Shown piece by piece: positions 551 through 58,680 of a stretch of 64,000 bases of DNA. Numbering within the stretch: the stretch's first letter is position 1; every line of letters starts with the position of its first letter. The translations under genes and the position numbers were made by a program. The stretch spans positions 1 to 64,000 of the forward strand of contig JADBWK010000032.1 in the NCBI GenBank assembly GCA_020404895.1. Reading direction: 5' to 3'. Origin of the DNA: Pseudanabaena sp. M085S1SP2A07QC (GTDB taxonomy: Bacteria; Cyanobacteriota; Cyanobacteriia; Pseudanabaenales; Pseudanabaenaceae). The notes under the pieces were generated by a model, which saw nothing but the letters and a program-made list of their open reading frames with translations, searched no databases and was not told where the DNA came from.

Positions 551-605
551 AAAACCCAAAACAAAAGTGGCGGCGCTTCGCGCCGCCACTTTTGTTTTGG
601 GTTTT
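551..605. repeat. Perfect palindrome, 26-bp arms, GC core
   Basis: The arms begin AAAACCCAAAACAAAAGT and end in the core GGCGGCGC, with a TTC loop and an exact complementary right arm. It belongs to the family of core-sharing palindromes that recurs through this window. It lies between the IS1 fragment and raf1. Confidence 0.9.
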
Positions 606-611
606 GATTTG

Positions 612-724
612 TCCTATAGCAACGTAAGAGATAGATAGGACAATTCAAAACCCAAAATATGGCAGAGCGAAGCTCTACCATATTTTGGGTTTTATGTCCT
701 AAGCAAAGCTTACATTGCTATATA
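612..724. mobile_element. MITE-like repeat with TATAGCAAYGTAAG ends
   Basis: Terminal inverted repeats TATAGCAACGTAAG (615-628) and CTTACATTGCTATA (711-724 region) differ at one base. They enclose a 47-bp hairpin (647-693, one mismatch, core AGAGC-GAA-GCTCT). No transposase is encoded, which fits a short non-autonomous element. No clear target duplication was found. Confidence 0.6.
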
Positions 725-743
725 TACCAAGAAATGCAAAAAA

Positions 744-773
744 TGTAGGGGCAATTCATGAATTGCCCCTACA
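744..773. terminator. Loop-less 30-bp palindrome 3' of raf1
   Basis: Perfect palindrome around the core GGCAATTCATGAATTGCC, followed by T on the plus strand and preceded by A (T on the minus strand). It could therefore stop transcription from both sides. The same core recurs at 48499-48534 and inside the MITE at 55221-55313. Confidence 0.6.
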
Positions 774-806
774 CTTTTTTTGTCACACTCAAACTAAAGA
801 TTGATA

Positions 807-1901
807 TTATTCTTCAAACTGCCAACGATCTTGAGAAGCAGCTTCGTCGAAGAATCGTTTAGGGCGCAAAGTTAGAGTGATTTTACCAAATAGCTTCACA
901 TCTGGTGAAGACTCAAACCATGCAAACTTGAGGTTCCCATCTTCATCAGCGATCGCAAAATAGCCGTTTTCATCCCAATCACGTTGGGCGCGATCGACTA
1001 GTACTAAAACATCTTCAACGCGATTGCGAATCGTACTAACAACCTCTTCTTGAGTAATTGCTGCTTGCAACGTATCTGTATTACATGAAACGATCACTCC
1101 ATCTTCCGCTTCATGAACCACAAACCATCCTGGCAGAGTTGCCCATGTGGACTCACTAGAGGAATGTACAATCCCAAAAGGAGTCATTTCATCAGTAAAT
1201 GGAACTGCTTTAAACTGCTCAATTGACATTGGCAAAGTCCCGACGACAGGCAAAATGCGAGGGATACTATCTTCGGAATCGTAACGGAAATTGGGCAATT
1301 TGGGAGCTTTCTTTTTGGAGGGGTTAGCCATGTCAGTGAGCAGACGTTCGATCGCCGATCTTGCCTTTTCACTATGAGCAAAACGCAAGCCCCGCGCAAT
1401 CAACCTTGTGCGTTCTTGCGGATCGATTTTTCCTTGAGCAGCTTTCAGGACTTGTAATACAACTGCATCCCCAGGGTGTCGGGTAAATCCTTCAGGCAAA
1501 TTTGCCACTGACGAAGCTTCTTTAATCGCCTTGACCACATCTTTGGCTTCTAAAACATCAAGATTCTTCTCAAGAGCAAAGGTCGCCATCGCTACTCTTT
1601 CAGACTGATTGAGTACGCGCAACTCATTGAGAATGTCACTTCCTTTTTGTTCAAAATGCGCAAGGACAATATCAGTAGCGTTTCCTGCCTGTAGGCTGGC
1701 ATAGACTTGTGAAGCAACGACAATCTGATTTTGTTGAACTGGCTCAAAACCCGTATTTTCAAAAATTGCGAGGGAATTCTCTCCCATTTTTTGTAGCATT
1801 TGGCAAGCAATTCCCCACTGCACCCAAGTTCCTTCTTTGTGGCGTAAGAGTTTCAAAAGTCCTTCAGAGTCGGTGGGAAGTGTGGGTACTGGGGTTGGCA
1901 T
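807..1901 (-). CDS. raf1: Rubisco accumulation factor 1 (Raf1)
   Basis: Raf1 is a dimeric chaperone that binds folded RbcL dimers and helps assemble the L8 core of Rubisco in the cytoplasm. The 364-residue product has the usual cyanobacterial length. The N-terminal helical domain (about residues 10-195) carries the family motifs KEGTWVQWGIACQ and GFEPVQQNQIVVASQVY. A flexible linker (KKKAPKLPNF, near residue 200) leads to the beta domain (about 215-360), which begins with the typical SIPRILPVVG. It is monocistronic. The start chosen is the ATG at 1901, and the ends match the family. rbcL is not in the window. Recognition rests on sequence motifs only. Confidence 0.9.
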   Translation of the reverse strand: MPTPVPTLPTDSEGLLKLLRHKEGTWVQWGIACQMLQKMGENSLAIFENTGFEPVQQNQIVVASQVYASLQAGNATDIVLAHFEQKGSDILNELRVLNQSERVAMATFALEKNLDVLEAKDVVKAIKEASSVANLPEGFTRHPGDAVVLQVLKAAQGKIDPQERTRLIARGLRFAHSEKARSAIERLLTDMANPSKKKAPKLPNFRYDSEDSIPRILPVVGTLPMSIEQFKAVPFTDEMTPFGIVHSSSESTWATLPGWFVVHEAEDGVIVSCNTDTLQAAITQEEVVSTIRNRVEDVLVLVDRAQRDWDENGYFAIADEDGNLKFAWFESSPDVKLFGKITLTLRPKRFFDEAASQDRWQFEE

Positions 1902-2334
1902 AGTTGTAATACAAATTTAAGTGAGTGCGATCTCTCTATCGTCATAATCATCGCACTTTAGATGTTAATTTGAGCAATGCGTAATTCCTAACTATTTGAT
2001 TTGCTGAATCGCTTTGGTAATACTCTAACCTGCATTATTCATCAGAATCGGCAAAAATCCTCGAAAGCCTTACTAAAAGATATATCTAGCGATTTGCAAA
2101 AAAAAGTCTGTTTTTTGAGGTGACGACACCATTAGGATTTCATGGATTGGTGAATAATTCAGGCTCAATAATTTATAATGTATCGTCAAAACAGTGAAGT
2201 TTTCACTCTCAGTGTCTCTCTTTCTCGTTTGTTCAATTTCTTTTATTATCTTCTAGTTCTAGGACACTTTTGTAGAAATGGTACAAGCTTTAAATCTTTG
2301 ATATGCTTACGCATAAAGACTTAATTTAATCAAG
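1902..2334. other. Intergenic, no gene seen
   Basis: AT-rich stretch between the divergent raf1 and the membrane-protein gene. I see no coding frame, tRNA or strong hairpin. It presumably holds both promoters. Confidence 0.5.
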
Positions 2335-2898
2335 ATGAATTTCAAGCAAGCATTTTTTTTTAGCATAGTACTATTCCTGCTCTCTCTCGCAGTGATGGCA
2401 ATTTCCTTCGTCTTGGGGGCTCCCACTGAGATTTTATTCAGGGCTTTTCTTTCCACCATATCGCTCGTTGTGTATGCTATGACAGCACTTTGTTGCTCTT
2501 TAGTCTTAGATCGTCCAAATTTAAACGTATTTGGGAAAATTGGGGTGGGGATATCGATTATTGGTGGAGTATTTGCAATACTGAGCAACTTTTTCATAAA
2601 TAGTCTTGATGGATTTGCTTCAGTAGTTATGTGGCGATATATATTTCTGATTATTGCTATTTCTCTTGCCCACATTTCCCTCTTAATGAAGATCGTCACA
2701 AATAATTTGTTCGTGCGTTTTGCTCGGGGGCTTACTATAAGTTCGATCGCTTTGGTCGCGTTGGGTTTTCTGAGTATTGTATTACCGTCTGGGTTTGGAT
2801 TCGCTATGCCTGAGTCAGTCTTCACGATCTCGATAATCCTTGACGTACTGGGCACTCTTGCCACTCCAATCCTCAATAAAGCCGTCAAATCAACCTAA
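2335..2898 (+). CDS. Hypothetical multi-pass membrane protein
   Basis: This 187-residue protein has about five to six hydrophobic helices (roughly residues 8-28, 36-58, 69-92, 101-120, 130-150, 160-182), separated by short charged loops. It is therefore likely to be an integral inner-membrane protein. No catalytic motif or recognised family signature is visible. An almost equally long antisense frame exists, but it lacks plausible protein character. The gene stands alone between long AT-rich spacers. Its function is unknown. Confidence 0.65.
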   Translation: MNFKQAFFFSIVLFLLSLAVMAISFVLGAPTEILFRAFLSTISLVVYAMTALCCSLVLDRPNLNVFGKIGVGISIIGGVFAILSNFFINSLDGFASVVMWRYIFLIIAISLAHISLLMKIVTNNLFVRFARGLTISSIALVALGFLSIVLPSGFGFAMPESVFTISIILDVLGTLATPILNKAVKST

Positions 2899-3493
2899 TT
2901 GACAGATATTAAATATAAATAGAATAATACAAATATTGTTCACAATTATGTAAGATACATCTAATCGATCTATTTGCCTAGCGAGTAGGAGAAGAATAGT
3001 ACAAAACTTATAGCCCAGATTTACCAAAGAAATCTGAGCTATAAATGTTCAAGAATGAATTAGAATTGCTATGAACTTGAGGAAGTTATCAATGACTGAT
3101 ACTTTTATAAATATAAAAACTTTCCTGCGAATCAACAATCTCAATGTTAGGTGTTAAGACAACCTCTATGGCTTATTACAACTGTTAAAACAATAAAAGC
3201 GGCAATCTGAGCTAGAAAAGACCACCTTTTTTCCCAACATAAATAATCTTGTCTTGTTCGAGCTGACTTTCCAGTGAAACCAAACTCATCTAAGGAAAAT
3301 ACAGTACCAAAGACTCCTTTATATCCTGTGGTTTACTGCATATTCTATTTTCTCCTACCTCTTCTTAATTTAGGCTGATATACTTACTGATGCAAAGGTC
3401 AAAGCATATAGGTAAATGAAAGATTCAGATTCCTATAACTATTCAAATTCTCAATAGTTTACCTTAGATCAATCTGCTAATCACAAGCTATTT
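2899..3493. other. Long AT-rich intergenic region
   Basis: Apart from the short open minus-strand fragment at 3147-3332 (separate entry), no gene, tRNA or strong hairpin is visible. Confidence 0.5.
3147..3332 (-). pseudogene. Possible gene-end remnant, membrane-anchored
   Basis: Open minus-strand frame with a stop on both sides and no usable start codon near its beginning. It reads like the end of a real protein: SLDEFGFTGKSARTRQDYLC, then a hydrophobic helix (FLAQIAAFIVLTVVIS), then a stop. It may be the tail of a decayed gene or chance. The family was not recognised. Confidence 0.25.
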
Positions 3494-4081
3494 TTAGCTA
3501 GGATCTATGGAAAACTCAACCTTCCCAGATTCATCCGTAACTGTAACTTTGACATTATGAGTCTTGCCAGCTTTTTCGGTGGCTTTACAGGTAAATGTCT
3601 CTCCTACCTTTTGAATTACGAACACTGTGCCACCACAGTCAGCAGTAGCTTCGGCATTAATCTTTTCCTGAATCGCCTTCTCCGCCTTAGATAAAGGTAT
3701 AAGGCGCTTAGGTTCTGCGCGGATGTTTCCTTTTTCATCTTTGAAGGTGACTTTTACTGGGAAATTGCCCTCTTTGAGGGTGGCTTCGCAATCAATCACC
3801 TTATCCGTTTTTATCGGGTCTACTTCGGGGCAGGAGATAGATTGAATGGGAGAATTAATACCCTCACCAATAAGTATGGGCTTTAGAGATTCAGATACTG
3901 TTTTCTCAACCTCTTTGGTGTTGTCAGACTTTTTGCTATCAGCAGTAGTTGCTGGAGTTTCTGTGGTTGTCTTTACCTCAGTTCCACCAGATAGGCTTAC
4001 TTTAGCTTCACAAGCATAAAGAAAGCTACCCATTAGAGTAACTAGCAGCAACCCACGCAATTTTAATAATGAAGCCATCAT
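3494..4081 (-). CDS. Lipoprotein with two DUF4333-like domains
   Basis: Signal peptide with a lipobox (LYAC, Cys near residue 24) predicts a lipid-anchored periplasmic or outer-membrane protein. A Thr/Lys-rich linker (about 33-62) follows. Two similar beta-rich units come next, each with a Cys pair and the pattern C-x(n)-F/V-x-C-x-A-x(n)-V-x-VT-x-DE-x-G. The first spans about residues 66-125 and the second about 132-192. This is the DUF4333 pattern, so the protein looks like an internal duplication of that domain. The function of DUF4333 is unknown. The gene lies downstream of carA but is separated from it by a hairpin terminator, so it is probably transcribed alone. Confidence 0.7.
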   Translation of the reverse strand: MMASLLKLRGLLLVTLMGSFLYACEAKVSLSGGTEVKTTTETPATTADSKKSDNTKEVEKTVSESLKPILIGEGINSPIQSISCPEVDPIKTDKVIDCEATLKEGNFPVKVTFKDEKGNIRAEPKRLIPLSKAEKAIQEKINAEATADCGGTVFVIQKVGETFTCKATEKAGKTHNVKVTVTDESGKVEFSIDPS

Positions 4082-4137
4082 GGTTTATGATTTCCTACCT
4101 GATATAAAGTTGTGAATTTTGGATATTGAGATGGACT

Positions 4138-4183
4138 TAATAATGATAGTCTACCCAGCAAAGTGGGAAAACCATCATTATTA
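4138..4183. terminator. Hairpin 3' of carA
   Basis: Inverted repeat TAATAATGAT...ATCATTATTA with an inner TACCCA/TGGGA stem, directly after the carA stop on the minus strand. Confidence 0.6.
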
Positions 4184-4197
4184 TTGACTAGAAAGAC

Positions 4198-5462: not shown

Positions 5463-5495
5463 AAAAAGAAGGCTTGCATTGCAAGCCTTCTTTTG
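5463..5495. terminator. Hairpin terminator of VOC gene
   Basis: AGAAGGCTTGC-ATT-GCAAGCCTTCT flanked by A and T tracts, so it can act on either strand. It lies directly 3' of the minus-strand VOC gene. Confidence 0.8.
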
Positions 5496-11363: not shown

Positions 11364-11530
11364 AGTTTAATTGGGCAACGCTACATCACATTATTCTAGA
11401 TTTATCTAAGGCTAAATTTTCCGATGTGGTATGTCGCTTAGTTGCTTGCTAAGAAAAAACATACAGTAAGACATCAATACATTCTTCAACTGTAATTTCC
11501 TCTAAGGAATGAAACTTAATTAACTTGTGA

Positions 11531-11591
11531 AATTAAAACCAAAATTTGTTGGGGTGGGCTGCGCCCGCCCCAACAAATTTTGGTTTTAATT
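11531..11591. repeat. Long palindrome between rpn gene and VIT/vWA gene
   Basis: Arms AATTAAAACCAAAATTTGTT with a GC-rich centre. Weaker complementarity continues outwards to AGGAATGAAA/TTTTCATTCCT (about 11504-11604). This 359-bp spacer holds only this palindrome and the next repeat. Confidence 0.85.
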
Positions 11592-11630
11592 AATTTTCAT
11601 TCCTAAGTAGGTTGTTGAAATTAAATGTAG

Positions 11631-14562: not shown

Positions 14563-14668
14563 AAATATTTTTTGCAGTGTCTTTTGGTAAGCAAAGCGAA
14601 TGTAATAATATCACAGTAAATATGCTTTTAAGTAGCTAGGCATAAGAAAATTTAAAAAGCGCAGGCTA

Positions 14669-14731
14669 AGATCCCCGACTTTTTTTAAGTTTGCAAATTA
14701 CCTTTGTTTGCCTAGAAAAAGTCGGGGATCT
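14669..14731. repeat. Hairpin repeat AGATCCCCGACTTTTT (copy 1)
   Basis: 16-bp arms AGATCCCCGACTTTTT/AAAAAGTCGGGGATCT enclose a loop containing TTGCAAATTACCTTTGTTTG. A second copy in opposite orientation lies at 49645-49709 and shares the loop motif, so the loop is conserved as well as the stem. Confidence 0.8.
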
Positions 14732-14856
14732 GGACATTGAAAGGTTTCTTAATGAGATCACCTACTTTTAATGGAGAATTACTTAAAAGTTCAGTATAAT
14801 ATTTTCATTCTTCACATTCCAGCAGATTTTTCGACCACTATAGGGAAAGAATATCC

Positions 14857-16352: not shown

Positions 16353-16393
16353 AAAAATTGAGTGGCTACGCGAAGCGCCGCCACTCAATTTTT
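16353..16393. terminator. Palindrome between amylase and WD40 genes
   Basis: AAAAATTGAGTGG/CCACTCAATTTTT with a partly degenerate GCG centre. The right arm runs into the TAA of the minus-strand WD40 gene, and it probably terminates both convergent genes. Confidence 0.75.
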
Positions 16394-17562: not shown

Positions 17563-17603
17563 AAAAAGAGAGTGGCGGCGCAAAGCGCCGCCACTCTCTT
17601 TTT
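17563..17603. repeat. Palindrome with GGCGGCGC core
   Basis: Perfect 19-bp arms AAAAAGAGAGTGGCGGCGC and loop AAA, upstream of the WD40 gene. Same core as 551-605 and 25218-25272 but different outer arms. Confidence 0.9.
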
Positions 17604-20539: not shown

Positions 20540-20576
20540 GTAAAGATGGGCGGCGCTAAGCGCCTCCCATCTTTAC
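20540..20576. terminator. Palindrome 3' of LRR gene
   Basis: GTAAAGATGGGCGGCGC-TAA-GCGCCTCCCATCTTTAC, arms near-perfect with one mismatch. Member of the GC-core palindrome family. Confidence 0.8.
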
Positions 20577-25217: not shown

Positions 25218-25272
25218 GTAAATGCAAAATAGGGTGGCGGCGCAAAGCGCCGCCACCCTATTTTGCATTTAC
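25218..25272. terminator. Perfect palindrome spanning two convergent gene ends
   Basis: 26-bp arms GTAAATGCAAAATAGGGT + GGCGGCGC, loop AAA. It starts 3 bp after the stop of the plus-strand gene, and the right arm contains the TAA (25269-25271) of the minus-strand J-domain gene. Confidence 0.92.
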
Positions 25273-27051: not shown

Positions 27052-28263
27052 ATGACTTGTACTAAAAAATGGCTTACAGTAGTTGGTATTGGGGAAGATG
27101 GACTGTCAGGACTAAGCCCAGCAGCCCGATCGCTAATTGATACTGCCGAAATTTTAGTAGGTGGAGATCGCCATTTAGCGATGCTTCCTGAAGATCTGCG
27201 ATCGCGATTAGTATGGGCTTCTCCAATTGAAGAAACTGTTCAGAAAATCATCAATTATCGCGACAAATCAGTATGTGTCTTAGCTAGTGGTGATCCACTT
27301 TGGTTTGGAATTGGTACTACTTTATTAAGAAGAATTCCCATAGAAGAAGTTTCGATCATTCCCTCGTCTTCCACTTTTAGCTTGATTTGTGCGAGATTAG
27401 GATGGTCATTGAATGAAGTGGAAACTCTCAGCTTATGTGGTCGTCCTGCTTCACTATTGCTCACTTACATCTATCCAAACGCCAAACTTCTAATTCTTAG
27501 TTCTGGAAAAGAAACTCCTAAGATTGTTGCCGAGATGCTATGCGATCGCAATTTCAGCAATAGCAAAATCATCGTATTAGAACATCTCAACGGCATAAAA
27601 GAACGTGTTATTTATAGTGTGGCGAATCAATGGCAAACCCTTCCTGAATTTGCCGATCTTAATGCGATCGCAGTGGAATGTATTCCCGATTTTGATGCGA
27701 AGATTCTATCACGCATAGTTGGGCTTCCCGATGATGCTTATCATCATGATGGACAATTAACTAAACGAGAAGTTAGAGCCATCACATTATCCGCACTTGC
27801 TCCAAATGCGGGTGAACTACTTTGGGATGTTGGCGCTGGTTGTGGTTCCATTGCAATCGAGTGGATGCGAAGTCATCCGCGCTGTCAGGCGATCGGGATC
27901 GAAAAATCTCGTACACATTTCATTGCGGAAAATGCAATTTCACTCGGCACACCAAATCTCAAAATCATCGAAGGCAAAGCACCTGAAGTTTTGCAAGGTT
28001 TACCCACTCCTGACGCAATTTTTATTGGCGGCGGCGCGAACATACCAGATTTATTTGAGACTTGCTGGACAAGCTTGCGATCTCAAGGGCGCTTAGTTGC
28101 CAACGTAGTTACCCTTGAGGGCGAACAAAAATTATTTCAGTGGCAGCAAAAATATGGTGGTACGCTCACCCAAATTTCGATTAGTCGTGCTGAAGCGATC
28201 GGCTCTTTTCTTGGCTGGAAGCCAATGCGACATGTAACCCAATGGAAAATTATTAAGCCTTGA
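27052..28263 (+). CDS. cbiET: Precorrin-6Y/cobalt-precorrin C5,C15-methyltransferase (decarboxylating)
   Basis: Fusion of CbiE (about residues 1-205, tetrapyrrole methylase with VVGIGEDGLSGLSPAARSLI and SGDPLWFGIGTTLL) and CbiT (about 215-400, SAM motif ELLWDVGAGCGSIAIEWMRS). Together they methylate C5 and C15 of the corrin ring and remove the C12 acetate carboxyl in cobalamin synthesis. The 403-residue length equals CobL-type fusions. Other corrin genes lie at 47.6-51.2 and 58.7-60.1 kb. No riboswitch is visible upstream. The final codons and stop are copied in inverted orientation by the palindrome at 28253-28319. Confidence 0.95.
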   Translation: MTCTKKWLTVVGIGEDGLSGLSPAARSLIDTAEILVGGDRHLAMLPEDLRSRLVWASPIEETVQKIINYRDKSVCVLASGDPLWFGIGTTLLRRIPIEEVSIIPSSSTFSLICARLGWSLNEVETLSLCGRPASLLLTYIYPNAKLLILSSGKETPKIVAEMLCDRNFSNSKIIVLEHLNGIKERVIYSVANQWQTLPEFADLNAIAVECIPDFDAKILSRIVGLPDDAYHHDGQLTKREVRAITLSALAPNAGELLWDVGAGCGSIAIEWMRSHPRCQAIGIEKSRTHFIAENAISLGTPNLKIIEGKAPEVLQGLPTPDAIFIGGGANIPDLFETCWTSLRSQGRLVANVVTLEGEQKLFQWQQKYGGTLTQISISRAEAIGSFLGWKPMRHVTQWKIIKP

Positions 28264-28319
28264 AGCGAACTTTGTGATAGTGCCGACGGCACTATCACAA
28301 AGTTCGCTTCAAGGCTTAA
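28253..28319. terminator. Palindrome whose left arm contains the cbiET stop
   Basis: 33-bp perfect arms around a single central base. The left arm covers the last coding bases and TGA of cbiET, and the right arm is its exact inverse copy. There is no T tract after it. Confidence 0.92.
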
Positions 28320-29628: not shown

Positions 29629-29665
29629 AAAAGATAGGGCAGCGCACAGCGCCGCCCTATCTTTT
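29629..29665 (+). terminator. Palindromic terminator of the HEAT gene
   Basis: AAAAGATAGGGC-a-GCGC-ACA-GCGC-c-GCCCTATCTTTT followed by further T, 9 bp after the stop. One internal mismatch. Confidence 0.85.
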
Positions 29666-31793: not shown

Positions 31794-31838
31794 CAGTATT
31801 AAAAGAAAGATTACTTAACAATCTTTCTTTTAATACTG
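31794..31838 (+). terminator. Strong hairpin between cpeD and the CpcD-domain gene
   Basis: CAGTATTAAAAGAAAGATT and its exact complement, 19-bp arms, 7-nt loop. It should block or attenuate transcription into the downstream genes. The remaining 240 bp of the spacer holds no gene and could carry a second promoter. Confidence 0.75.
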
Positions 31839-34134: not shown

Positions 34135-34468
34135 AATCCAATTAGAGTCAAATGAAGCCAAAATGCTGCCACCAGAAGCTCAAAAGAAAATGCAATGCTG
34201 GATTCGCAGCAGACATTTAATTTGTTCGGGTAATTTTTTTGTGTTTGAAAGTGTTGACTATAGCACTATTGAGAGATTCGGAGAGTCTGTTTCCGCTTTG
34301 GGAGGAACTGTAATATCTGTCGAGCCTGTCGATAAGATTTGGATGGGCGATCACCGCCAAGTCATTCTCTACCGTTCCAAAGCTAGTTTGCATACTCCTC
34401 ATCACCAATTGAAGCAATATTGGATTAAGTATGGAAATTTTCGGACTAGATTTGATGATCAAGCCTAA
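34103..34468 (+). CDS. cpeR: CpeR, activator of phycoerythrin expression
   Basis: The product is about 121 residues from ATG 34103 (MKSQLSSKLPEIQL), preceded by GGGAGAG. A TTG at 34079 would add eight residues and is less likely. The motifs QCWIRSRHLICSGNFFVFES and VDKIWMGDHRQVILYRSKAS fit CpeR, the last gene of the cpeCDESTR operon in Fremyella, which is required for green-light expression of cpeBA. The overlap with cpeT indicates coupled translation. If it acts as in Fremyella, the distant cpeBA should be its target (inference). Confidence 0.88.
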   Translation: MKSQLSSKLPEIQLESNEAKMLPPEAQKKMQCWIRSRHLICSGNFFVFESVDYSTIERFGESVSALGGTVISVEPVDKIWMGDHRQVILYRSKASLHTPHHQLKQYWIKYGNFRTRFDDQA

Positions 34469-34522
34469 AGCAAAAAAAGAATTGCAGCACTTAGCGCCAC
34501 AATTCTTTTTTCGCTTTAGGCT
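34462..34522. terminator. Palindrome joining the ends of cpeR and gcvP
   Basis: AGCCTAAAGC-AAAAAAAGAATTG and its inverse, one mismatch, loop with a degenerate GCGCC core. The left arm includes the cpeR stop and the right arm touches the gcvP stop. Confidence 0.88.
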
Positions 34523-37500
34523 ATTCGTAAGCTTCTATCGGTAAACAGGAACAGATGAAATTGCGATCGCCGAAAGCATTGTCAATGCGTCCAACACTTG
34601 TCCAGAACTTATGCTCCTTGAGCCAAGGTGCAGGATAAGCAGCTTGATTGCGGGTATAAGGATGGTTCCACAAATCAGCCAGTAGAGTTTCAGCAGTGTG
34701 AGGAGCATTTTTTAGCGGATTATTGAGTTTATCCATATCTCCAGAAGCGATCGCATTGACTTCTTCCTTGATAGAAATCATCGCATCACAGAAGCGATCG
34801 AGTTCTGCTTTCGATTCGCTTTCCGTTGGCTCGATCATCATTGTTCCTGCTACTGGCCATGACATTGTGGGCGCATGGAATCCATAATCCATTAAGCGCT
34901 TGGCGACATCATCCACCTCAATACCTGCGATCGCTTTGCAGTGATGTAAATCAATAATACATTCATGGGCAACTAAGCCATTTTTGCCTGTATAAAGAAT
35001 TGGATAATGCGGTGCAAGCCGTTGAGCCATATAGTTGGCATTCAAGATCGCTACTTCAGTAGCAAATTTTAAACCCTTCGCTCCCATCAGCGCAATATAA
35101 ACCCATGAAATCGTGAGAATGCTGGCACTTCCCCAAGGAGCAGCCGAAATTGTAGTTTGTTCAGGCTCTCCTTTAAAAGGATGTTTAGGTAAAAAGGGAA
35201 CTAACTGCGGTGCAACACAAATTGGTCCCATCCCCGGACCTCCTCCACCATGGGGAATACAGAATGTCTTGTGCAGATTCAGATGACATACATCTGCGCC
35301 GATATCTCCTGGACGGCAGAGTCCAACTTGGGCATTCATATTTGCACCATCCATATATACTTGTCCACCGTAATAATGAATGATGTCACAAATATCCTTA
35401 ATTGATTCCTCAAATACTCCATGCGTCGAAGGATAGGTGACCATCAGGGCAGCAAGTTCATGCTGATGTTTTTCAGCTTTCGACTTAAGATCGTTTACAT
35501 CAATATTTCCTTCATTGTCGCAATTTACGGTAACGACCTTCATCCCAGCCATGACTGCACTCGCGGGATTTGTACCATGTGCCGAAGTGGGAATCAGACA
35601 AATGTGACGATTAGTTTGACCGCGATGTAGATGATATTCGCGAATGGTTAATAAACCTGCATATTCTCCTTGAGAACCTGCATTTGGTTGTAGCGATACA
35701 CCAGCAAAACCTGTAATTTCGGCAAGCCAAGCTTCCAGTTGTTCAAATAGAACTTGATAGCCTTGGGTTTGTTCTAATGGCACAAAGGGATGAATATTGC
35801 CAAATTCAGCCCAAGTGACAGGAATCATTTCCGAAGTTGCGTTGAGCTTCATGGTGCAGGAACCAAGGGGAATCATCGATGTAGTCAGCGATAGATCTTT
35901 AGATTGGAGACGGTAAATATAGCGCAGTAGTTCTGATTCGGAATGGTAGGAATTGAATACGGGATGGGTGAGGTAAGGGGAATTACGAATTAGGGAATTA
36001 GGAATTACGAATTGAGAATCAGAAGCTCGTAATTCGTAATTGGTAATTCGTAATTGATCTCCAGAAAATATAGCAATTAGATCAAGTAAATCTTGCTTAG
36101 AGACGGTTTCATCGAGACTAATCGCGATCGTATTATCTGCTAAGTACCTTAAATTAATTTGTTTGGTGGCGGCTCTAGCTTTGATTTCATCGCTAGAGAT
36201 TCCCTTTAACTCAATGCGAATTGTGTCAAAGAAAGCTTGATGTGTAACTGTATGCCCTAAATTCTCTAGGGATTTGGCAAGCGTTGCGGTTAGGAGATTT
36301 ACTCGCTGAGCAATACGCTTTAGTCCCTCCGCCCCATGATATACAGCATACATACTCGCCATGATTGCTAGCAAAACTTGAGCCGTACAAATGTTACTAG
36401 TTGCTTTGTCTCGTCGGATATGTTGCTCACGGGTTTGGAGGGCTAAACGCAGGGCGGGACGACCATGCACATCCTTAGAGACACCGATCATGCGTCCTGG
36501 CATTTGGCGTTTATAAGCTTCTTTAGTTGCCATGTAAGCGGCATGAGGTCCGCCATAACCAAAGGGAACTCCAAATCTTTGGGCGCTACCGATCGCAATA
36601 TCCGCACCAAATTCAGCAGGTGATGTAACCAATGTGAGTGCTAATAAATCTGCGGCGACGATCGCTAAACCCCCTTGGGCATGAATTTGAGCAATTACAT
36701 CGGTGTAGTCATAAATTGCACCATCGCTAGCAGGATATTGCAACAGAGCGCCAAAGTAATTTTTGTCAAATTCAAATTCACCATGTTTAGCAATTACCAC
36801 TTCAATTCCTAAAGGAATGGCACGGGTTTTGACAACGGCGATCGTTTGGGGATGGCAATCACTGGATACAAAGAACTTGTTCCCCTTGTTCTTGGCAAGT
36901 CCTACCGCCATCGTCATCGCTTCGGCGGACGCAGTTCCTTCATCTAAAAGGGAAGCATTAGCAATCTCTAAGCCTGTCAAATCAATAATCATAGTTTGGA
37001 AATTGAGCAAGGCTTCCAATCGACCTTGAGCAATCTCGGCTTGGTAAGGAGTATATTGCGTATACCACCCCGGATTTTCTAAAATATTACGCTGAATAAT
37101 TGGGGGCGTAATGCAGTTGTAATAGCCAGTCCCGATGTACGATCTCCAAACTTGGTTTTTCGAGGCGATCGCCTTCAATTCCTGCAACAGTTCATGTTCC
37201 CCTCGTGCTTCCCCCAATTGTAATGGCTGCTTAATTCTGATCGCCGCAGGCACGGTCTTGTCAATCATTTCATCAAGAGAATCGCACCCGATCATCGTAA
37301 GCATTTGCTGAATTTCTGAAGAGCTTGCCCCAATGTGACGACGAACGAAGCTATCAGTTGGTGCAAGTGCATCATCACTGAGGCAAGCTGCTAGATAGTC
37401 ATTATGTTCAGCATTAGTTGAAAAGGCTGGAACCCTCAATTCTTTAGTTTCTGTGGATGTTTCTGTGATCGAAGAATCTTGGGTTGTCACGGTGAGCGAA

Positions 37501-37541
37501 GGTTCCAACATAGATTTTATAACTTGTGTAGACATACCCAT
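34521..37541 (-). CDS. gcvP: Glycine dehydrogenase (decarboxylating), P protein
   Basis: GcvP decarboxylates glycine with PLP in the glycine cleavage system, which is central to photorespiratory glycine use. The 1006-residue protein includes [17 protein letters not shown] near the start, the N-terminal half with [20 protein letters not shown], and the C-terminal half with the PLP-lysine motif [15 protein letters not shown] (Lys near residue 753). About 25 unusual residues near 495-525 ([19 protein letters not shown]) are encoded by a repeat inserted in frame at the junction of the two halves. Length otherwise fits. A long N-terminal extension precedes FVRRHIG, and the start could be further downstream. 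gcvT and gcvH are not nearby. Confidence 0.97.
35981..36056. repeat. AATTACGAATT repeat inserted in gcvP
   Basis: Alternating AATTACGAATT and its inverse AATTCGTAATT, a dispersed AT-rich repeat type that usually sits in intergenic DNA. Here it is translated without frame disruption. Confidence 0.8.
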
Positions 37542-37627: not shown

Positions 37628-37730
37628 TACCAATTCACAAAAGTGTGACGACACTTCTGTGAATTAAAAATCAAACACAGTAAGGGTTTTAAAAGCACAA
37701 AAATGGTATAGCCATTTTGGGTTTAGTTAT
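37628..37730 (+). mobile_element. Double-hairpin element, copy 1
   Basis: Hairpin AATTCACAAAAGTGT.../ACACTTCTGTGAATT, spacer ending AGTAAGGGTTTTAAAAGCAC, and hairpin AAAATGGTATAGCCATTTTG. It starts TACCAA. Other copies are 54946-55047 and 63765-63865. This copy is the most diverged and has lost the right TTGGTA end. It lies between gcvP and ruvC. Confidence 0.8.
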
Positions 37731-47619: not shown

Positions 47620-47790
47620 TTTAACGGGGATCAGCCGTTGAAAAAGCGAAATTAAGTAGATTATTTGTATCTGCTTAGTTTAAAGAAAGGGGAAAGTTTG
47701 GTGAAAGTCCAACGCTGTACCGCAACTGTAAAAGCAATAAAATCATCAGATGCTTAAAGTCAGGATGCCCACTAGAACTAATTTCATCGT
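47620..47790 (+). ncRNA. Cobalamin riboswitch
   Basis: Core elements in order: GGGGAAAG (about 47689), GGTGAAAGTCC (47700-47710), CTGTACCGCAACTGTAA (about 47715-47731) and the B12-box-like AGTCAGGATGCCCAC (about 47758-47772). These are the conserved blocks of AdoCbl/B12 riboswitches. The 5' boundary is approximate. It ends just before the hupE start at 47813, so cobalamin should repress this transporter gene. Confidence 0.9.
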
Positions 47791-47812
47791 CTATATCTGC
47801 GAGTTACAGAAT

Positions 47813-48481
47813 ATGAATTTATCTAAGCTTGTTGCATCAGTCCAGTCTAAGGCGATCGCGATCGGTTTTAGTCTCTTGGTTGTGGCTAGTCCCGCATCAG
47901 CACACCACCCCATGGGTGGAAAAATGCCCAGCACTTTTTTTGAAGGTTTTTTGTCAGGTCTAGCCCACCCTTTGATTGGAGTCGATCATCTTGCATTTAT
48001 TGTTGCTGTTGGTTTATTTGCGGCAATTAAACCCCAAGGCATTTTGATTCCTATTTTCTTTGTTTTATCAGCGATGCTCGGTACAGGAATTCATTTGTTA
48101 GGCATTACCTTACCTGTAGTTGAATTAGTAGTATCAGCATCCATCTTGTTGTTTGGAATTTTGATGGCACTCAAGAGTAGCCCTAACGTTTTAATGATGC
48201 TTGGGCTATCCGTTGTTGCAGGATTATTTCACGGCTACGCTTATGGCGAAGCGATTTTTGGTGCACAAACCACAGCTTTAGTTGCTTATTTATGTGGATT
48301 TACCGTAATTCAGTTAGTGATTTCAGGCGCGGCATTTTTTGTTGGTCAAAAAGTGATAAAGGGTGATTTTGCTCAAGTCGCTCCTAACTTGCGATCAGCT
48401 GGATTGGTGATTTGTGGAATTGGGGCAGCATTCCTAGCAACCAATATTTCATCTCTAATTCTGTCAGTACCTAAGGGTTAG
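47813..48481 (+). CDS. hupE: HupE/UreJ-type transporter, probably cobalt uptake
   Basis: Start ATG 47813 (MNLSKLVASVQSKAI) follows the riboswitch directly. The longer frame from 47750 runs through the riboswitch and is rejected. A signal-like N-terminal helix ends at PASAHHPMGG. The metal motif AHPLIGVDHLAF and about six helices identify HupE/UreJ, which moves nickel or cobalt. Control by a cobalamin riboswitch points to cobalt as the substrate (inference). cobW follows 100 bp later, with a palindrome between. Confidence 0.92.
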   Translation: MNLSKLVASVQSKAIAIGFSLLVVASPASAHHPMGGKMPSTFFEGFLSGLAHPLIGVDHLAFIVAVGLFAAIKPQGILIPIFFVLSAMLGTGIHLLGITLPVVELVVSASILLFGILMALKSSPNVLMMLGLSVVAGLFHGYAYGEAIFGAQTTALVAYLCGFTVIQLVISGAAFFVGQKVIKGDFAQVAPNLRSAGLVICGIGAAFLATNISSLILSVPKG

Positions 48482-48498
48482 AGAAGTTTTTCCTTGAC

Positions 48499-48534
48499 AA
48501 AAGTAGTGGCAATTCATGAATTGCCACTACTTTT
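48499..48534. terminator. Loop-less 36-bp palindrome after hupE
   Basis: AAAAGTAGT + GGCAATTCATGAATTGCC + ACTACTTTT, 18 bp after the stop. Same core as 744-773 with different arms. Confidence 0.85.
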
Positions 48535-48583
48535 GATTCCCTACTTGTAAAAGTGGGAGCTTTTAAATTTTTTAGAGAAGATT

Positions 48584-51163: not shown

Positions 51164-51225
51164 AAAAAAGCGGCGCATTGCGCCGCTTTTTTAATAATGG
51201 TCGGCGCATTGCGCCAAACATTATT
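51164..51225. terminator. Two adjacent palindromes after cobG
   Basis: AAAAAAGCGGCGC-ATT-GCGCCGCTTTTTT (51164-51192), then AATAATG...GGCGC-ATT-GCGCC...CATTATT (51193-51225). They lie between the convergent cobG and gyrB. Confidence 0.88.
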
Positions 51226-53191: not shown

Positions 53192-53390
53192 TTATGTCAT
53201 TTGCAAGAGGTTTTCAAGAAAATTCTTTGATATTAAGAAAAACTTTGTAGACACTCTTGATAGTGTTTTTAGGATGTGTTTTGAGCAAAGACTCAAAAAC
53301 ACTCTGCCATTATAGCTTAAAAGCCTTACAGATATATCAAAACCATCTCAGATTAAGTTTTTACATGCCTTATGCAAATACAAAAAAGCA

Positions 53391-53429
53391 AAAAAATAAA
53401 GGAGGTGCAAAGCACCTCCTCTATTTTTT
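53391..53429. terminator. Palindrome 3' of DUF4189 gene 1
   Basis: AGGAGGTGC-AAA-GCACCTCCT with A and T tracts. It terminates the minus-strand DUF4189 gene before gyrB. Confidence 0.82.
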
Positions 53430-53449
53430 TGGAATTTAAAGACTTTACT

Positions 53450-53944: not shown

Positions 53945-53978
53945 CCCGTTATTTTTGGAGGCATGTCCTAGTCAAAAG

Positions 53979-54703: not shown

Positions 54704-54945
54704 CAAATTACGATTCAACCGCAGGTAGAGGTAACGACTTTACCGACTACGACAGTCTATACCGATGAATCTGATGCTTACAATCGTATACCTGCTTCTG
54801 GTCGTGAGCGTCAAACTGTTTGTCACTCTCAGCGCGAGTATGCTCGCGATGAAGATCAAGATGCTTTTTGTGAGGTTCATTGCAATACTCTGGAGGACAT
54901 TCGCAGATCAAAGATAGAGAATTGTCAGTCTTTTCGCAGGTGTTT
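54704..54945 (+). pseudogene. IS1595-family (ISXO2-like) transposase remnant
   Basis: The frame reads TTTVYTDESDAYNRIPASGR, then TVCHSQREYARDEDQDAFCE and VHCNTLEDIRRSKIENCQSF. It corresponds to the region TDEWxGYN...HxxREWARDDDGDGxREVHxNTxEG of ISXO2-like transposases. The catalytic first half is missing, and it is cut off by the double-hairpin element at 54946. Confidence 0.75.
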
Positions 54946-55047
54946 TACCAATTCAGAGAAGTGTGGTCACACTTCTCTGAATTGGTAAAACAAACCCTGT
55001 AAGGGTTTTAAAAGCACAAAATGGCATAGCCATTTTGTGCTTTGGTA
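54946..55047 (+). mobile_element. Double-hairpin element, copy 2
   Basis: TACCAATTCAGAGAAGTGTG start, hairpin AGAGAAGTGT/ACACTTCTCT, spacer AAACCCTGTAAGGGTTTTAA, hairpin CACAAAATGGC/GCCATTTTGTG, end TTTGGTA. It has complete TACCAA...TTGGTA-type ends. Confidence 0.85.
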
Positions 55048-55074
55048 TTAGGCTTGGAATTGAGCCGACAATAA

Positions 55075-55245: not shown

Positions 55246-55313
55246 AAGCCTCATTTTGCCGTAGGGGCAATTCATGAATTGCCCCTACGGCTCGTTCTTT
55301 TGCGTAAGTCCTA
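55221..55313. mobile_element. MITE with TAGGACTTACGC ends and 5-bp target duplication
   Basis: The 93-bp element is TAGGACTTACGCAAAA...TTTTGCGTAAGTCCTA, flanked by the direct repeat AATCT (55216-55220 and 55314-55318). The centre is the perfect palindrome CCGTAGGGGCAATTCATGAA and its complement, with the core seen at 744-773 and 48499-48534. No coding capacity. Confidence 0.9.
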
Positions 55314-55355
55314 AATCTTTAGGATGTGTAGCACTTTGGGCTGATTATCTTAACC

Positions 55356-56480
55356 CTAATAGATTTCATATTTCATTAACTGACATGGTAATGTGCCATT
55401 TAAGACGGCTGTTCGTTCAGCACATTTCAGCCCAATCGTTTGAGATAGTTGCTTGTTTCCACTAAGAACAAAAGCTGTCCATCCCTTAAACCTTTGTTTA
55501 AGTACATTCCCTAATTGTTTATAAAAAACTCCTAAATCACTATCTCTTCCTAATCTTTCTCCATAGGGAGGATTGCAGAAGAGAACTCCACTATCAGCAG
55601 GTGCGACCACTTCTGAAAGGTCTAATGCCGAGAAGTAGACATGATTGGATAGACCACAATTTTTCGCGTTGACGATCGCTTGATCTACCACTTCAGGATT
55701 GCGATCGCTACCCCAGATTGGTGCAGGTAGAGCATCTAAACGATTATCATCCGCTTCTTGAATTAGTCGAGCTAAAAGCTCTTGATCAAAATCTAACCAA
55801 GCCTCAAATCCAAAGCGATCGCGAAACATTCCTGGAGCAATATTTAGCGCTTTTAAACTAGCTTCTAAGGGCAAAGTTCCCGAACCGCAAAGAGGATCGT
55901 AAAACATTTGGTCTGGTTGCCAACCTGACATCTGAATTAGGGCAGCAGCAAGAGATTCTTTTAGCGGTGCTGCGCCTACGGCAGGTCGATAGCCACGACG
56001 GTGCAGACTATTGCCTGAGCTATCGAGGCTGACGGTACAGCCATTGTCATCAATATGGACACCGATTCGTACATCCGCTTCCTGCACATCCACATCGGAT
56101 CGCTCACCAAATTTATCTTTCTGCTGATCGACGATCGCATTTTTAACTTGCAAGGCGGAGAAATGCGTGTGGTTAAGATGCTCGTTTTTGCCAGTGGCAT
56201 TAACGGCTAAGGTCATTTCAGGTGTGAGAAATTCTGACCAGTCGATCGCTTTGATTCCTTTATAAAGATCATCAGCATCAAGGCAATCAAACTGATCAAT
56301 GTGCATTAATATCCGAAATGGCAGACGCGCCCATAGATTGATCCGATAAAGCAAAGTGCGATCGCCTTCAAAGCTAACACCACAAAATCCTGCTTCGACA
56401 GAATGTGCGCCGAGCTGTTCTAATTCTTGTGCAGCCAGTGCTTCTAAGCCTCTCGCCACAGTTGCAAAATATTGATTCAT
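55356..56480 (-). CDS. THUMP-domain class I rRNA/tRNA methyltransferase (RlmL N-terminal type)
   Basis: Start ATG 56480 (MNQYFATVARGLEALAAQEL) matches family N-termini; the upstream frame to 56522 crosses a palindrome. The THUMP domain is at about residues 45-155 (FQVKNAIVDQ-like SALQVKNAIVDQQKDKFGER). The methyltransferase domain is at about 165-370, with FYDPLCGSGTLPLEASL and the catalytic NPPYGERLG. The family methylates guanine N2 in 23S rRNA (RlmL) or tRNA. The RlmK second half of the E. coli fusion is missing, as in most bacteria. Transcribed after tRNA-Arg. Confidence 0.9.
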   Translation of the reverse strand: MNQYFATVARGLEALAAQELEQLGAHSVEAGFCGVSFEGDRTLLYRINLWARLPFRILMHIDQFDCLDADDLYKGIKAIDWSEFLTPEMTLAVNATGKNEHLNHTHFSALQVKNAIVDQQKDKFGERSDVDVQEADVRIGVHIDDNGCTVSLDSSGNSLHRRGYRPAVGAAPLKESLAAALIQMSGWQPDQMFYDPLCGSGTLPLEASLKALNIAPGMFRDRFGFEAWLDFDQELLARLIQEADDNRLDALPAPIWGSDRNPEVVDQAIVNAKNCGLSNHVYFSALDLSEVVAPADSGVLFCNPPYGERLGRDSDLGVFYKQLGNVLKQRFKGWTAFVLSGNKQLSQTIGLKCAERTAVLNGTLPCQLMKYEIY

Positions 56481-56497
56481 CTTTAAAAATCCAAAGT

Positions 56498-56526
56498 AGA
56501 ATTGCGGCGCAAAGCGCCGCAATTCT
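56498..56526. repeat. Palindrome between tRNA-Arg and the THUMP gene
   Basis: AGAATT + GCGGCGC-AAA-GCGCCGC + AATTCT, perfect. It probably terminates tRNA-Arg transcription on the minus strand. Confidence 0.88.
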
Positions 56527-56538
56527 AAATATTAAAAA

Positions 56539-56612
56539 CAGGCTAGGATGGACTCTAACCATCGACCGATCGCTTAGAAGGCGATTGCTCTATACAACTG
56601 AGCTACTAGCCC
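56539..56612 (-). tRNA. tRNA-Arg (anticodon UCU)
   Basis: Acceptor GGGCTAG/CTAGCCT (G1-U72 wobble), D-arm GCTC-AGTTGTATA-GAGC, anticodon arm ATCGC-CTTCTAA-GCGAT, variable CGGTC, T-arm GATGG-TTAGAGT-CCATC, discriminator G. The normally invariant G19 is U and C56 is A, a paired change that would keep a Watson-Crick 19:56 tertiary contact. CCA is not encoded. All stems pair, so it is likely functional. It decodes AGA. Confidence 0.93.
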
Positions 56613-56811
56613 AAACAATTTCACGGCTTATTATAATACAACAAAAGTTATGGTTTTGGCAATTTGTTGTAAAACAGCAATTCTCATTTTAAAAACCTAT
56701 TTTTGTTGGGCTTTTGTTAAAAATTACTTTTTAAACGACCTAAACAAATTGCTGAGGTGTAATGATGTAAAAGCTCTATTAATAAAATTAATTAAAGTTT
56801 AGTAAATACCT

Positions 56812-57330
56812 ATGGATAGTACATTAGCGATCGCATACCTTGGGGCCTTAGTTGTGCTGCTAGCTGGGGTTAGCTGGTTAGTTATCCGCCAGATTTTGAA
56901 AGCACGTAGTTTAGAAAACGTAATTTCTGACCTACAGCCTAAGCTCCAAAAGGAAAAAGGCACACCTGAGGACTATTACCAACTTGGTAGTGTCTATTTG
57001 CGAAAAAAGCTCTACGCTCAAGCAATTACCCTGTTTAATAAGGCGCTGAAAGAAGGCGGAGAAAATATTGCCGAAGTTTATAATGCCTTAGGATTTTCCT
57101 ATTTCTCCCAAGAGCAGTATGATTTGGCGATCAAAAATTATAAGGAGGCGATCGCTTTACAAGATGGCTATGTGACTGCCATTAATAATCTTGGTCATGC
57201 CTATGAGAAGAAAAAGTTGCTACCTCAAGCGATCGAAATGTATGAGCAAGTGCAAAAGCTGGATGAAAAAAATGAAACCGCCAAGCGCCGCTTAGCTTCT
57301 TTACGAAAACAAGTAGTACCAACAGCATAA
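56812..57330 (+). CDS. ycf37: TPR protein, Ycf37-like photosystem I assembly factor
   Basis: The 172-residue protein has one N-terminal transmembrane helix (about residues 5-26, IAYLGALVVLLAGVSWLVI). Three TPR units follow, at about 52-150 (YYQLGSVYLRKKLYAQAITL, VYNALGFSYFSQEQYDLAIK, AINNLGHAYEKKKLLPQAIE). Length and layout agree with cyanobacterial Ycf37, a thylakoid protein that stabilises photosystem I trimers. Generic TPR proteins can look alike, so the symbol is tentative. Monocistronic. Confidence 0.7.
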   Translation: MDSTLAIAYLGALVVLLAGVSWLVIRQILKARSLENVISDLQPKLQKEKGTPEDYYQLGSVYLRKKLYAQAITLFNKALKEGGENIAEVYNALGFSYFSQEQYDLAIKNYKEAIALQDGYVTAINNLGHAYEKKKLLPQAIEMYEQVQKLDEKNETAKRRLASLRKQVVPTA

Positions 57331-57343
57331 AAAATACCATCTA

Positions 57344-57406
57344 AAGATGATATGCGGCGATTCGCGCCGCATATCATCTTCAAAAAGGACGCTTAGCGTC
57401 TCTTTT
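57344..57406 (+). terminator. Two palindromes between ycf37 and mnmA
   Basis: AAGATGATATGCGGCG-ATTCG-CGCCGCATATCATCTT (57344-57380) and AAAAA-GGACGC-TTA-GCGTCT-CTTTTT (57382-57406). The second ends at the mnmA stop codon. Confidence 0.85.
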
Positions 57407-58513
57407 TTATTGCTTGGATTCGATTAGTCCGCCGCCGATTAACAAGTCATCACGATAAAAAACCGCCGCTTGCCCTGGGGCAATACTAAATTGTGGCTCG
57501 TCAAAAACAATCCTTGCCCGATCTCCTTCGAGGGGAATGATGGTTGCAGGAGCTGGCACAGTTCGATAGCGCACTTGCACTTCCGCATGAAATGGTAGAT
57601 GCGTAGGAGCGAGGGATACCCAGTTCACTTGATTAATCGTGCATTCTTGATCGTGGGCTTCTGTGCGATCGCCTAAAACAACCTCATTCTTAATGGGATC
57701 GAGTGCAACTACATACAGAGGAGTTGCAGCCGCTACGCCTAAGCCTTTGCGTTGGCCGATGGTGTAGTGATAAGTGCCTTCATGCTCACCCAAAACATTG
57801 CCATGCGTATCAACGATTTTGCCTTTAACAGGCGTGAGATATTTATCCAGAAAAGCTTTCATCGAGCCATTGGCTTCAACTAAGCATAGATCCATGCTTT
57901 CAGGCTTTTCAGCGGTGGCTAAGCCAAACTCAGCAGCAATTTTGCGAGTTTCAATTTTAGTCGTATTTCCCAACGGAAAAATGCAGCAGCTTAATTCTTC
58001 TTGTCCGACTTCGTAGAGAAAATAGGACTGATCCTTAGTATCGTCAACAGCGCGGCGCAATTCATAGCGTCCCGACTCAGGATTAAAGTTGAGCTTGGCA
58101 TAATGTCCCGTCGCGATTTTATTAATTCCCAGCTTTTCACGGGCATAGGTCATCATTGGGGCAAACTTTACGGCTTTATTGCAGCGCGAACAGGGCAGAG
58201 GAGTATAGCCTGCTGCATATCCAGTGACCAAATAGTTGATAATGCTTTGCTCAAAGACTTCACGACTATCAACAATTTCATGGTGAATGCCTAATTCTTC
58301 GCATAGTCTAGCGGCATCGACCATTCCCTCGGAGCAGCATTGTCCCTTGCCACGCATTAACCACAGCGTCAAACCCGTGACATCATATCCTGCGCGATGC
58401 AATAGCGCCGCCGCCACAGAGCTATCTACTCCGCCCGACAAGCCGACAACGACTTTTTCTGCTATTGCAGGCTGAGTATCTAGTTTTCTTTCGATGATTT
58501 CTACGTTTGACAT
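57407..58513 (-). CDS. mnmA: tRNA-specific 2-thiouridylase MnmA
   Basis: MnmA activates U34 with ATP and inserts sulfur to give s2U in Lys, Glu and Gln tRNAs. The P-loop [20 protein letters not shown], the catalytic Cys segment [14 protein letters not shown] (first Cys), and the second Cys region [12 protein letters not shown] are in place. Start ATG 58513 ([11 protein letters not shown]) is preferred; six more in-frame residues precede it at 58531. The 368-residue length is normal. It complements mnmG, encoded at 44.7 kb. Confidence 0.96.
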
Positions 58514-58641
58514 TTGCTGCGATCGAACCACTTAAACTAAATTGTATCGTAAAGGGTTGTGAGGTTAGTGATACAGTGCCAGATTAAGCGATCGCCATGA
58601 TTACAAACTTTGTTCTATTTGTAGATTTTATTAAGTATTTC

Positions 58642-58680
58642 AAAAGATGAAAGCAGCGCAAAGCGCTGCTTTCATCTTTT
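58642..58680. terminator. Palindrome 3' of cbiA
   Basis: AAAAGATGAAAGCAGCGC-AAA and exact complement, 18-bp arms, 4 bp from the cbiA stop. Confidence 0.88.

Follow-up and report, generated by a model that had tools for sequence, protein, structure and literature searches.

The stretch of DNA considered here (hereafter the window) comprises 64,000 nucleotides, positions 1 to 64,000 of contig JADBWK010000032.1, forward strand, from the cyanobacterium Pseudanabaena sp. M085S1SP2A07QC (assembly GCA_020404895.1). An Rfam search of the window at gathering thresholds returned two tRNAs and a cobalamin riboswitch, and no family for the long hairpins that lie between many of its genes, whose positions were taken from greedy calls of open reading frames (ORFs) of at least 90 amino acids, a crude procedure. 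These hairpins, many of which share a core, are the subject of this report. A first-pass annotation had listed twelve such palindromes, and a near-perfect hairpin is indeed present at 12 of the 12 sites. The shared centre that it described holds at most of them: GGCGGCGC-NNN-GCGCCGCC occurs without mismatch at 551, 17563, and 25218, with one mismatch at 20540 (GCGCCTCC) and 29629 (GGCAGCGC), and as a related core at 51164 (AGCGGCGC), 56498 (TGCGGCGC), 58642 (AGCAGCGC), and 57344 (TGCGGCG, with a 5-nucleotide loop). The centre at 53391 (GGAGGTGC) is close to it just in a loose sense, and the sites at 16353 and 34462 are degenerate, as had been stated. With one scoring rule for long hairpins, 30 are found in the window, compared with 0–1 in five Markov shuffles; the palindromes are thus confirmed, and they lie well outside what chance would produce. 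Long hairpins number 289 in 409 kb of this genome, 203 of them with 3-nucleotide loops, and the core hairpins are a subset of this larger set; the 409 kb consist of 21 stretches, 20 of which were chosen for holding a core, so that the share of core hairpins is inflated.

The exact core of 19 bases occurs 68 times in this genome and is present in all 25 other Pseudanabaena genomes searched (17–430 times per genome), whereas it was found 0 times in nine genomes from other genera of the same family and once each in two of 23 more distant genomes. The pattern read backwards, searched for as a control for chance, occurs 0 times in this genome and in every other genome searched. Seven genomes of the genus hold 269 hairpins in 484 kb, these stretches being chosen, non-random counterparts of the window; 79 loci of other organisms hold 162 in 1.43 Mb, and the 12 cyanobacterial loci among them account for 20 in about 215 kb.

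The arms of these hairpins pair far better than their base composition predicts. At 30 exact-core sites picked by the core alone in the 409 kb, each of positions 9–15 from the loop pairs in 28–30 of the 30 sites, against 32–62% expected from the make-up of the columns, in agreement with the near-perfect pairing within sites noted in the first-pass annotation. Pairing goes down to 16–26 of 30 at positions 16–26 and reaches the chance level from about position 28. The further statement that the arms differ completely from site to site was an overstatement: between-site identity is 0.32–0.62 at positions 9–15, and positions 9–26 retain traces of one consensus arm. Among 57 hairpins with an inner GCGC, which were selected for pairing with positions 1–4 thereby fixed (the 30-site set repeats the test by core alone), between-site identity is 0.59–0.79 at positions 5–8 and 0.33–0.53 at positions 9–16, and an A-rich and next a C-rich trend runs across positions 16–22. 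The commonest loops in this set, TTC, GAA, AAA, and TTT, make up two reverse-complement pairs. The consensus read from the arms is AAAACCCAAAAGATGAGTGGCGGCGC, and to judge from this comparison the arms are probably diverged versions of this one arm.

Miniature inverted-repeat transposable elements (MITEs) are short elements with terminal inverted repeats that occur as many dispersed, near-identical copies and have their ends in common with a transposase-coding parent. The core hairpin sits inside a repeat of 108–116 bp that starts with TATAGCAAYGTAAG and ends with its inverse, and that resembles MITEs in its inverted ends, its dispersal, its many near-identical copies, and a length that leaves no room for a transposase. 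In this genome, 40 copies were scored among 290 first-look candidates, 37 of them identical and three at 99% (query included) over positions 1–108 of the repeat. Among the matches listed, the 116-bp form with the GGCGGCGC core has many copies in the related genomes G005, G012, and G022 and fewer in G017, G008, and G004, and subfamilies exist, for example with CCA for CCC in the outer arm. When end pairs with up to three mismatches per end were collected from the fetched stretches, 14 of 22 proved to be 108–116 bp long with the hairpin inside; the other eight, sorted by eye, comprise variants that differ in length in either direction, a duplicate entry, and a few pairs due to chance. No match came from a pattern search in which the gap of the element was set to 20–50, since its actual gap is at most 19. 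The ends start and finish with TATA, and a TA duplication is indistinguishable from the end itself. Whole copies of the repeat lie near a few of 30 loci of the DDE_3 transposase family. The repeat differs from MITEs in that most core hairpins lack its ends and that no parent transposase with these ends was found at these loci, for which reason we call it MITE-like. Of 57 core hairpins in this genome (one mismatch allowed; a set chosen differently from the inner-GCGC set), 13 have recognisable element flanks. These comparisons indicate that part of the core palindromes are copies of the MITE-like repeat whose arms have diverged together; for this part, at the least, the first-pass annotation was mistaken in its premise that the palindromes are not repeat copies. 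The core hairpins without flanks are probably either old copies of the element or independently kept hairpins.

The repeat copies allow arm changes to be counted against a clock, namely the flanks of each copy. From 110 candidate loci, 108 with the element were obtained; two were dropped for poor alignment and three for a gap or extra bases in the hairpin, which left 103 copies. The 30 loci with the young variant in this genome were left out, being identical according to the match table. A change was called private if the variant was present in fewer than five copies, and private divergence of the flanks is 2.3% (2678 arm pairs in the 103 copies). If the arms changed independently, 1.4 paired double changes and 124 single changes would be expected, an expectation that ignores rate variation along the element; 44 double and 39 single changes were observed. 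The 44 doubles are spread over 28 copies, and 30 of them are transversional, so that no G–U intermediate is available to an RNA. One could suppose that the arm differences go back to a diverse MITE-like family with many source copies, and that no ongoing copying takes place between arms; the existence of subfamilies and of some copies with several arm changes at once would suit such a history. Against this, 24 doubles occur in the 68 copies whose flanks are near the consensus (less than 2% private divergence), loops and arms differ at orthologous sites of related genomes, and hairpins with unrelated arms (5464, 31794, and 53389) behave alike. We regard this history as very unlikely.

Changes also affect the loop, and many of them are exact inversions, a feature that had gone unseen in the first-pass annotation. 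The flanking DNA of each hairpin was used to find hairpins at the same place in seven genomes, which gave 167 unique pairs; 76 pairs with arms at least 70% alike were retained, and four with palindromic loops were dropped. Of the 72 informative pairs, 30 have identical loops, 28 have loops that are exact inversions of each other, and 14 have loops that differ in some other way. Pairs within one locus are not independent, and the count by locus is safer: of 21 informative loci, inversion is seen in 12, another change in seven, and neither in four. Where two triloops are unequal (38 pairs), 71% of the differences are exact inversions, compared with 10% (maximum 32%) in 2000 trials of random draws from the loop pool. 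The clearest case is the hairpin at 31794, where the loop is ACTTAAC here but GTTAAGT in G017, while neither of the 19-bp arms differs. In the 103 repeat copies the loops are TTC (59), GAA (28), TTT (8), and AAA (8). Because palindromes are hard to sequence and the analysis rests on assemblies, the loop inversions, and perhaps the arm matches, might be thought artefacts of assembly or amplification. The same comparison of 13 hairpins in 24 kb of Escherichia coli K-12 with four strains gave 0 inversions in 38 pairs (32 the same, six changed, three of these without a hairpin), although this control is only partly matched, with a threshold of 22 rather than 26 and stems of 8–15 bp, shorter than most here. 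Inversions also occur with arms as short as 13–14 bp (5464, 51164, and 56497), and a paired double change requires a real new base. An artefact is hence a highly improbable explanation.

Coupling between the arms is not uniform along the stem. In the 103 copies, the first eight pairs from the loop show two double and 22 single changes and pairs 9–25 show 42 and seven (Fisher p = 1e-10; pair 26, the stem end with 10 singles, is left out), and the contrast is seen separately in each of the three best-sampled genomes (p = 0.013 in G022, 0.0013 in G012, and 0.0022 in G005). The input of changes is similar in both zones, at 24 of 1648 sites inside and 49 of 3502 outside; the zones therefore differ less in how many changes enter them than in what becomes of those changes. 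A count of compensatory double changes at orthologous sites, the check proposed in the first-pass annotation, supports coupling and places the turn at about pair 7: at 18 loci there are six doubles and 15 singles at pairs 1–6 and 32 doubles and 10 singles at pairs 7–15 (p = 4e-4; pair 16 and beyond, with three doubles and five singles, left out). A second repeat family, with an inner TGGC, gives four and 11 at pairs 1–8 and 23 and six at pairs 9–13 (p = 1e-3; pairs 14–16, with seven doubles and 27 singles, mostly at the end position, left out), and the CAATTCATG palindrome gives zero and four at pairs 1–7 and 28 and 15 at pairs 8–15 (no significance test). It should be mentioned that these family counts, like those of the two families considered further below, include changes shared by descent. 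An inner limit to co-copying would explain why the shared core is conserved. The inner boundary appears to be new here, the literature search not having been aimed at it directly.

Intrinsic terminators consist of a stem and then a run of T, located past genes. The hairpins resemble them in their GC-rich stem, their A-rich and T-rich outer arms, and their frequent position past stop codons or tRNA 3' ends, and differ from them in their symmetrical long stems and in a shared core specific to the genus. It could be argued, then, that the pairing is maintained by selection on RNA hairpins, as terminators or mRNA 3' ends, with the compensating second mutation being selected. By the crude ORF calls, there is a stop codon no more than 30 bp away from 102 of the 184 hairpins that have a stop-side neighbour, and 24 hairpins lie between divergent ORFs. 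Core hairpins near stops make up 20 of the 44 without flanks and one of the 13 with element flanks (p = 0.02). Some hairpins carry T tails, and stems followed by a T run are only weakly above shuffles in two parts of the window (22 against 16.9, standard deviation 4.5; 26 against 17.7, standard deviation 4.4), which we do not count as proof. On the other side, a loop inversion keeps the stem as before and needs no such selection, and the transversional majority of the doubles lacks the G–U step. The doubles were counted in element copies, and in this genome most element-flanked copies lie away from stops (12 of the 13 by more than 30 bp). Moreover, mismatches in the inner stem persist, at a rate per site like that of changes outside it. 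Selection on RNA structure, which the first-pass annotation had offered as one of two readings, is therefore unneeded for the pairing, and as its cause it seems improbable to us; it may decide which hairpins persist, and may thus explain why flank-less hairpins remain past stops. These flank-less hairpins may serve as terminators, and the position past stop codons and tRNA 3' ends, together with symmetric A-rich, GC, and T-rich arms, would suit bidirectional ones.

The reading we prefer, with a probability of roughly 0.78, combines descent of at least part of the core palindromes from a repeat with copying between arms by template switching. On this account, they would derive from the internal hairpin of a short Pseudanabaena MITE-like element, and template switching would take place at the hairpin during replication: a nascent strand may leave its template there, use as a new template either the second arm or, across the loop, the opposite strand, and then go back. 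Copying past the first 6–8 pairs would rewrite one arm from the other, new mutations would become paired doubles, and each site would drift to its own self-complementary arms, while a switch across the loop would leave the loop inverted. The innermost pairs would be spared, plausibly since priming of the switch requires them to be paired beforehand, and the ancestral core would stay recognisable. A fold-back switch of this kind, in which the inner stem pairs first and is left uncopied, would fit the boundary; an inversion over loop and inner stem, which swaps a mismatch without mending it, also fits. Template switching is likely to account, as a single process, for doubles, loop inversion, and the growth of arms. 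That one flank is copied onto the other, the second reading in the first-pass annotation, is strongly supported by the paired doubles, the exact inversions, and a gene end copied at 28253. In this hairpin the left arm includes the last 11 bases of ORF 27052–28263 (TTAAGCCTTGA), and the right arm ends with an inverted copy of them, both here and in G008. G017 and G019, where this hairpin is missing, retain the same ORF-end bases, and the direction of copying is therefore from the gene outward. As a whole, the earlier interpretation stands as regards arm copying and falls as regards its premise that these are not repeat copies. A narrower proposal is that the core is the footprint of the mechanism, in that its 6–8 innermost pairs prime the fold-back switch, are hardly ever copied, and so stay alike genus-wide; we offer it tentatively, at slightly less than even odds.

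Several observations weigh against the preferred reading. As to repeat descent, no pair of the repeat ends encloses the transposase gene in the 30 DDE_3 loci (G000, G005, and G022; the DDE_3 family alone was tried), and 44 of the 57 core hairpins lack recognisable element ends, so that their descent rests on the arm consensus. As to the counts, copies were taken in order of score in the Basic Local Alignment Search Tool (BLAST), which works against changed copies and against doubles more than singles; private changes common to two to four copies may have been counted repeatedly; and the zone limits were set after the first table had been seen, the other sets serving as a check. In a family with an inner GTTGC, doubles occur already from pair 4, and an AAGTGT hairpin shows zero doubles and five singles at pairs 1–6 and 16 and 20 at pairs 7–15, with singles still common outside (no significance test); hence neither the boundary nor the strength of copying is constant. 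Loops also mutate, as the 14 otherwise changed pairs indicate, and two G005 copies with the same flanks have the loops TTT and GAA, which are not exact inverses. Finally, whole hairpins have been replaced at 25218 and 29629, which arm copying alone leaves unexplained. An inner hairpin of 35 bases, present in G008 and not in G017, lies between two copies of AAATATTT; if this difference is a loss, slippage would be expected to produce it.

Loss of nucleases that process hairpins was considered as a genus-specific cause and rejected. SbcD and the ExoVII large subunit are matched here and in all 25 other genomes of the genus that were searched, and the ExoI C-terminal family is unmatched in 43 of 43 genomes searched, 17 of them outside the genus, which makes its lack no peculiarity of Pseudanabaena.

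In yeast, inverted repeats undergo homogenisation of their arms and inversion of their spacer, inversion being limited to arms longer than 9 bp, and the table of spacer inversions includes TTC to GAA (PMC8604942). Compensated changes, together with inversions of loops, are known from rRNA stems (PMC8794818), and E. coli has reporters for template switching on the leading and lagging strands (PMC7202029). Template-switch mutation at inverted repeats agrees with our case in arms made identical, exact inversion of the spacer, long arms, and short spacers; what differs here is that many dispersed hairpins are involved, that inversion is seen in 12 of 21 orthologous loci, and that co-change starts mostly 6–8 bp from the loop. 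In chloroplast DNA, small inversions, likely aided by hairpins, are common (PMC12371153), and minute inversions at chloroplast hairpins were described by Kelchner and Wendel in 1996 (as cited in PMC12371153). These too are small, hairpin-linked, and in non-coding DNA, whereas the present organism is a free-living cyanobacterium with coupled arm evolution and a transposon-like source. REP families, for their part, carry a GTAG or CGTC tag (PMC3733652). In a literature search on Pseudanabaena palindromes, terminators, and MITEs, no relevant account was found, as judged from titles and the starts of abstracts; a broader search on MITEs and hairpins in cyanobacteria yielded no paper that mentions Pseudanabaena.

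Repetitive extragenic palindromic (REP) sequences and REPINs go with a RAYT transposase. The features of the window are listed in Table 1; unlike most, the hairpin at 17563 is situated upstream of a pair of divergent ORFs, and the non-core hairpin at 5464 behaves like the core hairpins.

Table 1. Hairpins and a repeat copy in the window, with their counterparts in related genomes.
Feature	Position	Strand	Arms and loop	Setting	Same place in related genomes
Core hairpin	551..605		26-bp perfect arms; loop TTC; arm AAAACCCAAAACAAAAGTGGCGGCGC, near arm consensus of MITE-like repeat
Young 108-bp MITE-like repeat copy	615..722	+	TATAGCAACGTAAG...CTTACATTGCTATA
Hairpin inside 615..722 copy	647-693		Loop GAA, inverted relative to prevailing TTC
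Non-core hairpin	5464..5494		14-bp arms; loop ATT		Loop ATT in G017, AAT in G019 and G005; paired arm change in G005
Degenerate core hairpin	16357..16391			Between convergent ORFs	GGCGGCGC versions in G017 and G008; GGCGACGC version in G019
Core hairpin	17563..17603		Loop AAA		Loop GAA in G017, TTC in G008, TTT in G010; one paired double arm change in G010
Core hairpin	20540..20576		Loop TAA	16 bp past stop codon	Loop TTA and paired arm change in G017
Core hairpin	25218..25272			Between convergent ORFs; 4-base overlap with one ORF end	Hairpin with core of same kind and other arms in G008 and G017
Hairpin with other core	28253..28319		32-bp arms; loop GAC		Loop GTC in G008
Core hairpin	29629..29665		One A–C mismatch	8 bp past stop codon	Other hairpins in G008, G017, and G019
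Non-core hairpin	31794..31838		19-bp arms; 7-nucleotide loop ACTTAAC
Degenerate core hairpin	34462..34522			At 3' end of ORF 34521-37541 (-)	Pairs better in G017: GCGGTGC-TTC-GCGCCGC
Core hairpin (AGCGGCGC)	51164..51192		Loop ATT	Between convergent ORFs	Loop ATT in G017; AAT in G008 and G019
GGAGGTGC hairpin	53389..53431		Loop AAA	18 bp past stop codon	Loop AAA in G019; TTT in G008 and G017
TGCGGCGC hairpin	56497..56527		Loop AAA	Adjoins 3' end of tRNA-Arg gene	Loop AAA in G010, G017, and G019; TTT in G008; paired arm change in G010, G017, and G019
Core hairpin	57344..57380			Between convergent ORFs	Present in G017; none in G008, G010, and G019
AGCAGCGC hairpin	58642..58680		Loop AAA	4 bp past stop codon	Loop AAA in G008; TTT in G017 and G019; GAA in G010; paired arm changes

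Other repeats and features accompany these hairpins. A second dispersed palindrome, with the fixed centre GGCAATTCATGAATTGCC and a palindromic loop, lies at 738–779, 48498–48535, and 55258–55291; in 22 copies from the fetched stretches its outer arms vary by copy and mostly pair. The repeated hairpins AAAGCACAAAATGGC and AATTCACAAAAGTGT, at 54941–55052, 63769–63861, and 37632–37665, have the loops GTA/TAC and GACG/CGTC, which are inverse pairs, and about 105 bp at 54943–55052 have many matches in four related genomes. Of two further dispersed repeats, the one at 11502–11610 includes a hairpin with 29-bp arms (GGGGTGGGC-TGC-GCCCGCCCC) and has several matches in related genomes, and the one at 14628–14750 has many, at about 80–91%. 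At locus L133 of G022, an insertion of ~90 bp (about 3839–3928, coordinates by eye), absent in G005, has ends like TATAGCRNTCCTAAAT and an inner GTGCGCCCC hairpin, and is a second MITE-like element carrying a long hairpin. The cobalamin riboswitch aptamer is at 47651–47790 (+) and overlaps the called start of ORF 47750–48481.

What is described here is best read as a mutational process known from elsewhere, but unusually strong and zoned, at work in a MITE-like repeat family as well as in other hairpins; template switching, the likely mechanism, is itself already known, and the interest lies in its intensity and zoning. The perfect pairing of long hairpins is often credited to slow compensatory selection, whereas here copying in one step is indicated, with the warning that covariation alone is no proof of a functional RNA. 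Many copies with flank clocks give the strength of copying relative to point mutation, plus its inner limit, and would let genome comparison measure a process otherwise studied with reporters. If the core is indeed a priming footprint, these hairpins would be a natural recorder of template switching, in which the orientation of the loop would play the part of a fast switch and mismatches between the arms that of a slow clock. In Pseudanabaena, we have a free-living relative of plastids with loop inversions like those of chloroplast DNA.

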